From Pseudomonas fulva (GTDB lineage Bacteria > Pseudomonadota > Gammaproteobacteria > Pseudomonadales > Pseudomonadaceae), in NCBI RefSeq assembly GCF_023517795.1, contig NZ_CP082928.1, forward strand, positions 124,001 to 188,000: DNA of 64,000 nucleotides, given 5' to 3'. The translations under genes and the position numbers were made by a program. The notes under the pieces are model-generated. The model was not told the origin of the DNA. It searched no databases and was given only the letters and a program-made list of their open reading frames with translations. Numbering within the stretch: the stretch's first letter is position 1; every line of letters starts with the position of its first letter. Below, piece by piece: positions 26,613 to 62,439 of this stretch.

Positions 26613-26688
<76 letters not shown>

Positions 26689-26701
26689 ATTTACAACAAA
26701 T

Positions 26702-26777
26702 TGGCGTCCCCTAGGGGACTCGAACCCCTGTTACCGCCGTGAAAGGGCGGTGTCCTAGGCCACTAGACGAAGGGGAC
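26702..26777 (-). tRNA. tRNA-Glu(TTC), copy 2
   Basis: A 76-nt tRNA with acceptor GTCCCCT, anticodon TTC within CCTTTCACG, T-arm GGGTTCGAACCCC and encoded CCA. It looks identical to the copy at 26930-27005. Confidence 0.97.
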
Positions 26778-26792
26778 CTGGAACTTCTTACC

Positions 26793-26814
26793 GCGATCCA
26801 GCTGCCAGGCTGGA
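26793..26814. other. Intercistronic hairpin between tRNAs
   Basis: A perfect 8-bp stem GATCCAGC/GCTGGATC with a 6-base loop lies between the second tRNA-Glu and the first tRNA-Gly. It could be a processing signal for the precursor; no T-run follows, so it is not a terminator. Confidence 0.45.
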
Positions 26815-26823
26815 TCCAGAATC

Positions 26824-26899
<76 letters not shown>

Positions 26900-26929
26900 A
26901 ATCTTTTGCTGCTCCACTTCTTTTGGAAG

Positions 26930-27005
26930 TGGCGTCCCCTAGGGGACTCGAACCCCTGTTACCGCCGTGAAAGGGCGGTGTCCTAGGCCACTAGACGAAG
27001 GGGAC
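26930..27005 (-). tRNA. tRNA-Glu(TTC), copy 1
   Basis: First tRNA of the transcript. It has 76 nt, anticodon TTC and encoded CCA, and begins about 55 bases downstream of the predicted start site. Confidence 0.97.
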
Positions 27006-60619: not shown

Positions 60620-60697
60620 GCACTCAGAGTCGGCAGGAGTATTCCAAATCCGTTTAAAGACGCCATGGACGATGGCCGCGGATGACCAATACTCAAT

Positions 60698-60814
60698 CGT
60701 ACCGGTGCGGCATATTCCCCCAAGTGTCGCAGCGGCCGAAGTGCCGAGGACCGCGCACTTCGTTCGACTCCTAATGGTCTTGACCCGGATTCCGTCCCGA
60801 AGCCGGGTTTTTTT
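60698..60814 (+). ncRNA. rgsA: Candidate RgsA/P16 small RNA
   Basis: About 117 nt end at a clear terminator (ACCCGG/CCGGGT stem, 60783-60805, then seven T). A possible -10, CAATACT at about 60686, would start the transcript near 60698. The location between the PA2957-side genes and tatD (PA2959) is where RgsA (P16), an RpoS- and Gac-dependent sRNA of about 120 nt, lies in P. aeruginosa. No ORF fits here. The identity rests on size, terminator and synteny, not on sequence comparison. Confidence 0.55.
60783..60814 (+). terminator. Rho-independent terminator of the candidate sRNA
   Basis: ACCCGG stem with CCGGGT and a T7 run. The aminotransferase stop is 160 bases upstream, so this terminator more likely belongs to an independent short RNA. 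Confidence 0.8.
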
Positions 60815-60850
60815 GGCTCTTCGCATAGTTTGGGAAAGTTAGGGTTGCTA

Positions 60851-61148
60851 CCGGACTGGCAAGTTTGTGTGAGCTGTCGATAACTCGGCACCTTCCATTA
60901 GCGCGCCGCCTGGCCGGATGGGTTTCGCCCCTTACGGGCGAGTCACTTTCTCTTGCTTGCCCAAGAGAAAGTAACCAAAGAGAAGGGCACCCCACCATCC
61001 GGCCCCGGCTGCGCCGCGGTTCCCTCGCTCCATCACCACTCCAGGGGCACGCTGCGAAGGGCCATCCCTGGCCCATCGCAGCTCTCGCGACATCCATGTC
61101 GCTCAACCCCTTACGTGGCGATTCCACTCGGCCTCCTGAAGGGGATTT
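60851..61148 (+). repeat. Left arm of a long hairpin-rich inverted repeat
   Basis: The arm begins with CCGGACTGGCAAGT and contains five successive hairpins: 60926-60940, 60946-60971, 61003-61019, 61051-61082 and 61087-61102. The other arm (61235-61532) matches it in inverted orientation over about 300 bases. Stems differ between arms but keep pairing. Both arms have an open frame of about 60 codons whose translations align without gaps, but no start signal is convincing. Confidence 0.88.
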
Positions 61149-61234
61149 AGGCGTCGTCTGTGAGATCGGGCTTCAAGAGCAAAAGCCAAACGCTACCGAA
61201 TTTGATCTTGCGCAGATATCACAGGCTCGCGACA
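61149..61234. other. Spacer between the inverted arms
   Basis: About 86 bases with a weak internal inverted repeat CTGTGAGATC/GATATCACAG. No gene seen. Confidence 0.6.
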
Positions 61235-61532
61235 TGGTCCCCGTCAGGAGGCCGAGTGGAGGTGTTGCGTAGGGGAGCGAGCCGCATGGATGCGGCGAGA
61301 GGCTTAATGGGCCAGGGATGGCCCATGTAAGCCGGCCCCCGGAGCGGCGCCGGAGCGAGGGAAGTTTCGCGCAGCGAAACCCGGATGTCGGGGTGCCCTT
61401 CTTTGGCACACCTTTCTTGGGCAAGCAAGAAAGGTGTGGCGCCCGTAGGGGGCGCAACAAAGAGGCTCAGTAAACGCGGTAATGGATAGTGTGATGCCAG
61501 TAAGTGATACGCACACAGACTTGCCAGTCCGG
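61235..61532 (-). repeat. Right arm of a long hairpin-rich inverted repeat
   Basis: Inverted partner of 60851-61148, ending in ACTTGCCAGTCCGG. Hairpins, in plus coordinates: 61281-61296, 61301-61333, 61364-61380, 61407-61438 and 61439-61455, in the same order as in the left arm when read on the minus strand. The remaining 115 bases to the tatD stop show nothing. Confidence 0.88.
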
Positions 61533-61647
61533 CGTCAAGCCTATCCTCCCCGCGAAAATGCGGAGAACCTCTTTTGCCCACTCTCTGGCGGCCGGCCTTG
61601 CATCGGCGCAAACGACGGCAGAGCCGCTCGCGGTTTTCCTGGCTGCC

Positions 61648-62439
61648 TCAGGCGCCAGGAGCGACTCGTGCCAGCGGGAACAACCGCCTGAAGTTGTCCC
61701 CGGTCTGCTGCGCCAGGGTTTCGTAGCTGACGCCACGCAGGGTTGCCAGGTACTCGGCGACGTCACGCACGTACGCCGGCAGGTTCGGCTTGCCACGGTG
61801 CGGCACCGGCGCCAGGTACGGCGAATCGGTCTCCACCAGCAGGCGGTCGGCCGGCACCTGGCGGGCGACCTCGCGCAGCGCCTCGGCGTTGCGGAAGGTG
61901 ACGATGCCGGACAGCGAAATGTAGAAACCGATGTCCAGCGCCGCCCTGGCCATTTCCCAGTCCTCGGTGAAGCAGTGCAGCACGCCGCCCTGGGGCAGCG
62001 CGGCTTCGCGCAGCAGACTCAGGGTATCGGCACGCGCTTCGCGGGTATGCACGATTACCGGCTTGCCGGTGATCTGCGCGGCCTGCAGGTGCAGGCGAAA
62101 CGCCTCCTGCTGCAGCTCGGCCGCTTCGGGCTCGTAGTGATAGTCCAGACCGGTCTCGCCGATGGCCACCACACCGGGATGGTCGAGTTCAGCGAGCAGC
62201 CAGTCGAGCGCCGGCGCGCTGCCGGGCTCGAGATCCAGCGGGTGGATGCCGACGGAGCAGTCGACATCGGCGTAGCGCCCCGCCAGTTCACGCACGGCAG
62301 CGGCATTGTCGGCGCTCACGCCGATGCACAGGAAGTGGCCGACGCCACGGGCACGGGCGGCCGCCAGCGCGTCGTCCAGAGAACCGCCATGGGCGGCCAG
62401 GTCGAGACGATCGAGGTGGCAGTGGGAATCGATGAGCAT
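61648..62439 (-). CDS. tatD: TatD-family metal-dependent DNase
   Basis: A 263-residue TIM-barrel hydrolase with metal ligands in IDSHCHLD, GETGLDYH, VIVHTREA and LVETDSPYLAP. TatD/YcfH proteins are DNases linked to DNA repair and quality control. It follows pilZ on the same strand with an 85-base gap, in the order tmk-holB-pilZ-tatD found in P. aeruginosa (PA2959). Confidence 0.94.
   Translation of the reverse strand: MLIDSHCHLDRLDLAAHGGSLDDALAAARARGVGHFLCIGVSADNAAAVRELAGRYADVDCSVGIHPLDLEPGSAPALDWLLAELDHPGVVAIGETGLDYHYEPEAAELQQEAFRLHLQAAQITGKPVIVHTREARADTLSLLREAALPQGGVLHCFTEDWEMARAALDIGFYISLSGIVTFRNAEALREVARQVPADRLLVETDSPYLAPVPHRGKPNLPAYVRDVAEYLATLRGVSYETLAQQTGDNFRRLFPLARVAPGA

Follow-up and report, generated by a model that had tools for sequence, protein, structure and literature searches.

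In a 64,000-nucleotide stretch of the Pseudomonas fulva genome (contig NZ_CP082928.1, positions 124,001 to 188,000; hereafter the window), we characterized a 755-bp mobile element that is inserted into the terminator of the rgsA small RNA gene and carries two inverted arms resembling the TwoAYGGAY RNA family. We put the probability at roughly 0.55 that the outward strands of these arms carry a predicted RsmA/CsrA-binding RNA of TwoAYGGAY type, set back to back in a terminator-targeting MITE, and that this RNA acts as a weak decoy beside RsmZ. The initial annotation had described two inverted arms of about 300 bases, each with five hairpins, at positions 60851 to 61532, and both parts of that description were recovered: segments 60981-61145 and 61238-61402 are 74% complementary and segments 60832-60871 and 61512-61551 are 80% complementary, and every one of the five hairpins is found in both arms. 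The first reading needs correction in that an outer two-part helix (P0a/P0b) is also present and encloses two of the hairpins, and in that the whole element, delimited by comparison of its terminal inverted repeats (TIRs), is larger, with TIRs of about 55 bp lying partly beyond the positions first given (Table 1).

Table 1. Coordinates of the element, its arms and its neighbours (positions in the window)
Feature	Position	Strand	Evidence or remark
RgsA sRNA gene; its terminator T-tract is the insertion target	60625-60806	+	Rfam RF00628, 140.7 bits
Left target copy, rgsA terminator T-tract (GTTTTTTT)	60807-60814		T-run continues straight into tatD in five relatives
Whole MITE, 755 bp	60815-61569		TIR comparison
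Left terminal inverted repeat, start GGCTCTTCGCAT	60815-60871	+	
Arm A, putative TwoAYGGAY-type RNA, sense on -	60925-61122	-	Rfam RF01731 at 61045-61109 (-), 39.1 bits, cutoff 43; covariation; arm-model match 60996-61105 (-)
Arm A, hairpins V and IV	V 60925-60941, IV 60942-60975	-	
Arm A, hairpin III	61003-61019	-	
Arm A, closing helix P0a	61032-61039 with 61115-61122	-	
Arm A, hairpin II, loop AGGGAU	61051-61082	-	
Arm A, hairpin I, loop AUGGAU	61087-61102	-	
Centre between arms	61146-61237		No sigma-70 promoter match
Arm B, putative TwoAYGGAY-type RNA, sense on +	61261-61455	+	Rfam RF01731 at 61274-61339 (+), 41.3 bits, cutoff 43; covariation; arm-model match 61278-61387 (+)
Arm B, closing helix P0a	61261-61268 with 61344-61351	+	
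Arm B, hairpin I, loop AUGGAU	61281-61296	+	
Arm B, hairpin II, loop AGGGAU	61301-61333	+	
Arm B, hairpin III, GCA triloop	61364-61380	+	
Arm B, hairpins IV and V	IV 61407-61438, V 61439-61455	+	
Right terminal inverted repeat	61513-61569	-	
Right target copy, decayed (TCTTTTGC)	61570-61577		
tatD, convergent neighbour	61648-62439	-	PF01026, E 2.3e-82

The rgsA and tatD genes converge on the element, which sits between them at the T-tract of the rgsA terminator, with tatD on the far side. Coding frames in the arms were rejected, and the four open reading frames over the element are without a Pfam match; no clear conserved motif was found in the centre between the arms. Elsewhere in the window (26616-27005) lie four tandem tRNA genes whose scores are equal in two pairs.

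The element is a MITE: it is short, bounded by TIRs, and devoid of a transposase, with target duplications in related copies and empty sites in relatives. A whole-element search of its own genome returned 39 alignments (both orientations counted), which resolve into seven two-armed elements, one half element, and six single arms; in one of the two-armed elements (L035) one arm is truncated and matches at only 36 bits. In its own genome a model built for the arm gives 21 matches, including a truncated one, and across the genus it matches 79 of 119 sampled genomes (the best 32 candidates per genome were scored); the early suspicion of a dispersed Pseudomonas repeat proved correct. The TIR consensus reads GGyTCTTCGCAT...ACCGGACTGGCAAGTTTGTGTG, and its exact 21-base core is present in 108 stretches of public genomes, all of them titled Pseudomonas except one Stutzerimonas and three of a gammaproteobacterial MAG. 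Where both TIRs of a pair fall within a single stretch, the unit they delimit measures 197 to about 980 bp, a length into which no transposase fits; a single span of 7,623 bp is an artefact of two separate elements in one locus (L060), and in 37 of the 108 stretches no pair was found at up to five mismatches, several of these stretches ending nearby.

Boundary statistics were drawn from 46 copies, or from the 47 distinct insertion sites of 94 TIR pairs under 1,300 bp. An exact 8-bp target duplication flanks 14 of the 46 copies (not deduplicated) whose outer ends could both be placed, and a duplication score of at least 6 is reached by 27 of them, compared with 16% of re-paired controls; target-site duplications, which the initial annotation had named as a check, are thus seen in related copies, and that of the window's own copy has decayed. 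At least five T in nine bases were counted at 40 of the 47 distinct sites, and a stem of at least eight pairs stands beside the T-run at 31 sites versus 7 on the other flank. The insertion target is the T-tract of intrinsic terminators. Empty sites, the other check that had been named, were found in five relatives (G008, G013, G028, G054, and G027), in which the rgsA T-tract runs directly into the end of tatD, against filled sites in G000 and G001; of 10 loci compared for this purpose, one is filled (G001), five are empty, and four fall outside the text pattern used. Across 40 rgsA loci, an arm-like match occurs in two, G001 and, more weakly, G045; the latter (L246:884-1113, downstream of rgsA, nhmmer E 3.7e-17) may reflect a separate insertion close to this gene.

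Several single arms have boundaries of other kinds. Two of them (L036:700-1600 and L040:700-1600) lie between different inverted ends (GAGCCTGTTC... / ...GAACAGGCTC in L036; similar but decayed in L040), which suggests a second, unrelated carrier element. Three others (L037, L041, and L042, at genome positions 1229116, 932725, and 3688676) have in common an abrupt left boundary (ATGTCTCCGGTCCGTACAGCATTGCCCC) that cuts hairpin IV and resembles an IS21-type end.

The ISL3 family of insertion sequences is marked by TIRs that start with GGTTCTTCG and by an 8-bp AT-rich target duplication. The element has both features in common with ISL3 insertion sequences and their MITEs and differs from them in being without a transposase, in having two RNA arms as its contents, and in its terminator T-tract target; on this likeness of sequence, an ISL3-family transposase likely drives it. 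We checked seven ISL3 loci, and in only one does the end match the TIR above chance: the end adjoining a degenerate ISL3 frame in G078 agrees with the TIR at 33 of 50 positions, where shuffles reach at most 30 and 30 other loci at most 28; the end of the G060 locus matches at 28 of 50 as do its shuffles, and the remaining five are lower. Each of 15 genomes searched has at least one match to PF01610, and in each this includes a weak one (about 40 to 44 bits) in a long frame. This recurrent weak match (L152 and similar loci) falls in a frame of 413 to 652 amino acids; in L152 it reads like a fatty-acid desaturase and not like an insertion sequence. The only PF01610 match in the element's own genome is in a 426-amino-acid frame with no clear TIR beside it and was rejected as an intact ISL3 element.

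Selection on base pairing within the arms, as proposed from the covariation first noticed between them, is upheld by a larger alignment. For this test we used 50 arms aligned by MAFFT without structure and 37 pairs in helices P0a, P0b, I, II, and III: 92.4% of cells are paired, 22 pairs have changes on both sides, and the cells changed on both sides number 284 versus 96.4 (SD 12.0) in shuffles, with none of 500 shuffles reaching 284. Sliding the partners by one to three columns lowers pairing to 37 to 55%. Further pair types, one of five measures compared, show no excess, numbering 40 versus 44.3 in shuffles. An earlier 24-pair structure on 35 arms went in the same direction (113 both-side cells versus 41.5 in shuffles), with the number of pairs changed on both sides not clearly above shuffles (10 versus 8.9). 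Helix P0a was recognised only after the arms had been folded; all eight of its pairs change on both sides, and 98.0% of its cells are paired. Pairing in the local helices other than II is 94.8 to 98.4%, and in II it is 83%. Single arms also fold better than their shuffles (z scores of -6.2 and -6.1). In most copies, hairpin III ends in a GC-closed GNA triloop; in some arms (e.g., L039 and L053) tandem G-A/A-G pairs replace Watson-Crick pairs near this triloop, and tandem GAs are reported for a TwoAYGGAY stem (PMC4333381).

The initial annotation had offered structured RNA or single-stranded DNA as the object of this selection, and of these the RNA is favored by the wobble pairs and the single-stranded DNA disfavored. 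The 400 cells of P0a comprise 319 Watson-Crick, 73 G-U, 2 A-C, and 6 other combinations (237, 51, 2, and 6, respectively, over 37 distinct configurations); because a G-U on the GGA strand is an A-C on the other, selection in P0a sees RNA of the GGA strand. Hairpin IV has the same asymmetry (G-U 12 versus A-C 2), counted over 22 distinct stems obtained by free search, at least two of which (L110 and L097) are not hairpin IV, and hairpin V has no wobble. The helices outside P0a, taken together, go in the opposite direction (G-U 12 versus A-C 30), and most of these 30 A-C cells come from two places: 15 from a single column pair of hairpin II, at which a one-base shift affects about half of the arms, and 7 from the junction-end pair of P0b. 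Hairpins I, inner II, and III are near-invariant (GT 16 and AC 10 after model fitting) and do not decide the strand. The first wobble counts (GT 14 and AC 43, or GT 43 and AC 39 after model fitting) were confounded by the one-base register shift in hairpin II and by the near-invariant stems.

Although the initial annotation knew of no named element with this form, the core of the arm matches the Rfam family TwoAYGGAY (RF01731, clan CL00106). Arms and family have in common two tandem hairpins with A-N-GGA-N loops, on the same strand, inside an outer stem, and this stem around both hairpins is present here as P0a. The arms differ from the family in carrying the extra hairpins III, IV, and V and in coming as divergent pairs in a MITE; moreover, loop I of the window arms fits AYGGAY, while their loop II fits only A-N-GGA-N. 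With Rfam at sensitive settings, arms A and B fall 3.9 and 1.7 bits, respectively, below the RF01731 cutoff, which is reached by 2 of 14 loci in their own genome (43.1 and 43.0 bits), 3 of the 6 other Pseudomonas loci given (50.6 to 65.7 bits), and 2 of 15 loci outside the genus (45.4 and 54.1 bits). Judged by sequence and predicted fold, the window arms are TwoAYGGAY-type RNAs and are not filed here as curated RF01731 members. A match to MIR810 (44 bits; cutoff, 170) covers the long inverted repeat and was dismissed.

The motif A-N-GGA-N is that of CsrA/RsmA, and both window arms have at least two such sites in hairpin loops. Across 215 distinct Pseudomonas matches, C-A-N-GGA-N-G is preserved in the 8-nucleotide loops (n = 184 for I and n = 202 for II), no fixed position having more than one exception, and the N positions vary, strongly so in loop II (G 137, T 53, A 11, and C 1 of 202); loops of other lengths (31 of 215 for I and 13 of 215 for II; insertions, deletions, or misfits) stand outside these counts. 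The model behind the 215 matches rewards these letters, and the fairer count is that of 52 arms gathered by whole-arm homology, which show the same loop pattern. Outside the genus, 18 matches yield 17 loops of 8 nucleotides for each hairpin, and all of these retain A and GGA. A single CsrA gene and a single RsmZ were found in the element's own genome. All 17 RF01731-positive genomes checked have CsrA, as do 15 of 18 comparison genomes, and since it is nearly universal in the class this co-occurrence is compatible with a link and does not discriminate. The decoy RNAs RsmX/RsmY/RsmZ and CsrB/CsrC are sRNA genes with their own regulated promoters. Like the arms, they present GGA in the loops of hairpins, in agreement with the CsrA/RsmA motif (see also PMC4333381); the arms differ in lying scattered on mobile DNA and in showing no promoter match. 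Gardner and Eldai (2014; PMC4333381) read the A-N-GGA-N loops as the CsrA/RsmA motif and treat TwoAYGGAY as a family of unknown function with predicted CsrA binding.

The GGA strands point outward in all 77 arm pairs (7 of 7 in the element's own genome and 70 of 70 at TIR loci). Divergent pairs account for 7 of 14 loci in the own genome and, among the TIR loci, for 70 of the 90 that the arm model matched (92 of the 108 TIR-core loci were searched with it, 16 being left out), and at other loci of the genus 18 of 20 pairs are divergent. The rare opposite, a convergent pair, was seen at L172 and L310, and a tandem pair at L182. The proposal that the two arms might be independent copies in opposite orientation was right in that they are homologous and inverted, and fails as to independent insertion, as they form one TIR-bounded divergent unit; single arms do exist elsewhere, without these TIRs.

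Within the class, the arm model matches 16 of 369 genomes (the best 10 candidates per genome) and RF01731 matches 18 of 274 (the best 9 per genome), 14 of them over the cutoff and often with several copies, the own genome being included in both counts. We hand-picked 20 loci in four other families from the RF01731 class matches, three of them for a visible close pair; eight of their nine close pairs are divergent and one is convergent, and 11 loci have single matches. Divergent pairs outside Pseudomonas thus occur in two gammaproteobacterial families (G387 and G276; G204), and several of these loci form imperfect palindromes in which some 600 to 710 bases align. All 14 loci of G387/G276 have hairpin IV (TTTCTTG-CTTGYCC-AAGAAA, its lower stems varying), which is absent from the 6 others. 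The ends of these two-armed elements differ from the TIR described here, suggesting that the back-to-back arrangement predates the ISL3-like TIRs.

In the reading that we favor, leaky read-through from either neighbour, rgsA or tatD, would make the arm RNA; with the arms inverted, read-through from either side would cross one arm in sense. The two loops, 28 nucleotides apart, are predicted to hold one RsmA dimer per RNA, and the many copies in the genome would act together as a weak decoy beside RsmZ. Counting against a decoy are the failure of a sigma-70 promoter search to find any match inside the element and the scores of the window arms below the RF01731 cutoff; in addition, a transcript of the whole element could fold into one giant hairpin (-479 kcal/mol, compared with -120 and -134 kcal/mol for the single arms) in which the loops are hidden. 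A more general proposal, which we advance only tentatively, is that TwoAYGGAY RNAs are cargo of widespread palindromic mobile elements with two outward RsmA/CsrA decoys, such that terminator leak would yield a decoy in any landing orientation.

Other roles for the arms have to be weighed against a decoy. They might act in cis, forming the 3' end of read-through transcripts and stabilising or insulating the convergent neighbours, with the GGA loops binding another protein or only drawing RsmA to those mRNAs. The insertions directly behind terminators would suit such a role, as would the Rfam typing of RF01731 as Cis-reg and two + strand matches resembling terminators close to hairpin IV (61386-61409), the latter at about shuffle level; on the other side, the fit of the loops to C-A-N-GGA-N-G at nearly all fixed positions speaks against it, and the table in Weinberg 2010 gives TwoAYGGAY a cis-reg entry of "n", listing it among probable RNAs and as neither a cis-regulator nor a riboswitch. 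We consider action in cis unlikely. To much the same degree we doubt a role of the arms in the service of the element, for example as a folded substrate or RNA used in transposition or as a shield of the long palindrome from cleavage, with RsmA irrelevant. Their place inside the TIRs and inverted in a MITE is what such a service would lead one to expect, and hairpin IV with its CTTGYC loop is common to two-armed elements with other ends in another family, but single arms persist without these TIRs, the G-U tolerance of P0a points to RNA of one strand, and we know of no role of A-N-GGA-N loops in ISL3 transposition.

A function of the arms as DNA hairpins or cruciforms, in single-stranded DNA, appears very improbable. 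The long inverted repeat speaks for it, as do the few wobbles of hairpins I, inner II, and III, the A-C excess outside P0a (mostly register shift and one junction pair), and the GC-GNA-GC triloop, which occurs in hairpin III and is a very stable DNA mini-hairpin. The wobble asymmetry in P0a and hairpin IV nevertheless leads us to set aside single-stranded DNA or a cruciform as the main selected form, and complementarity between the arms is no more than 74%, against nearly full pairing of their local helices, II apart.

Among known repeats, REPINs, which are paired REP hairpins moved by RAYT, resemble the element in consisting of two inverted hairpin units dispersed in Pseudomonas; they are about 100 bp long and are not known to have such TIRs and 8-bp duplications. 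Silby et al. (2009; PMC2718517) described the intergenic repeats R178 (101 bp, with an internal 11-bp inverted repeat) and R200 (320 bp) in P. fluorescens, whose size and structure could fit hairpin IV and the whole arm, respectively; these might be the P. fluorescens versions of the same sequences. The loop string CTTGCTTGCCCAAG had no match in the literature searched, and a search for literature on DUF1534 together with Pseudomonas found nothing. The TwoAYGGAY family and its proposed CsrA link are already known. In the literature searched, mostly by titles and the starts of abstracts, we found no description of mobility, divergent pairing, or a terminator-targeting carrier of TwoAYGGAY.

The element would link mobile DNA with an RNA family whose function is unknown, and divergent pairs on DNA that targets terminators would explain the copy number of TwoAYGGAY. 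With the arm model matching so large a share of the genus, the predicted CsrA link would become testable in ordinary pseudomonads. If the decoy reading is true, differences in copy number between strains would shift the Gac/Rsm switch, and the element would be a transposon that titrates its host's global post-transcriptional regulator.
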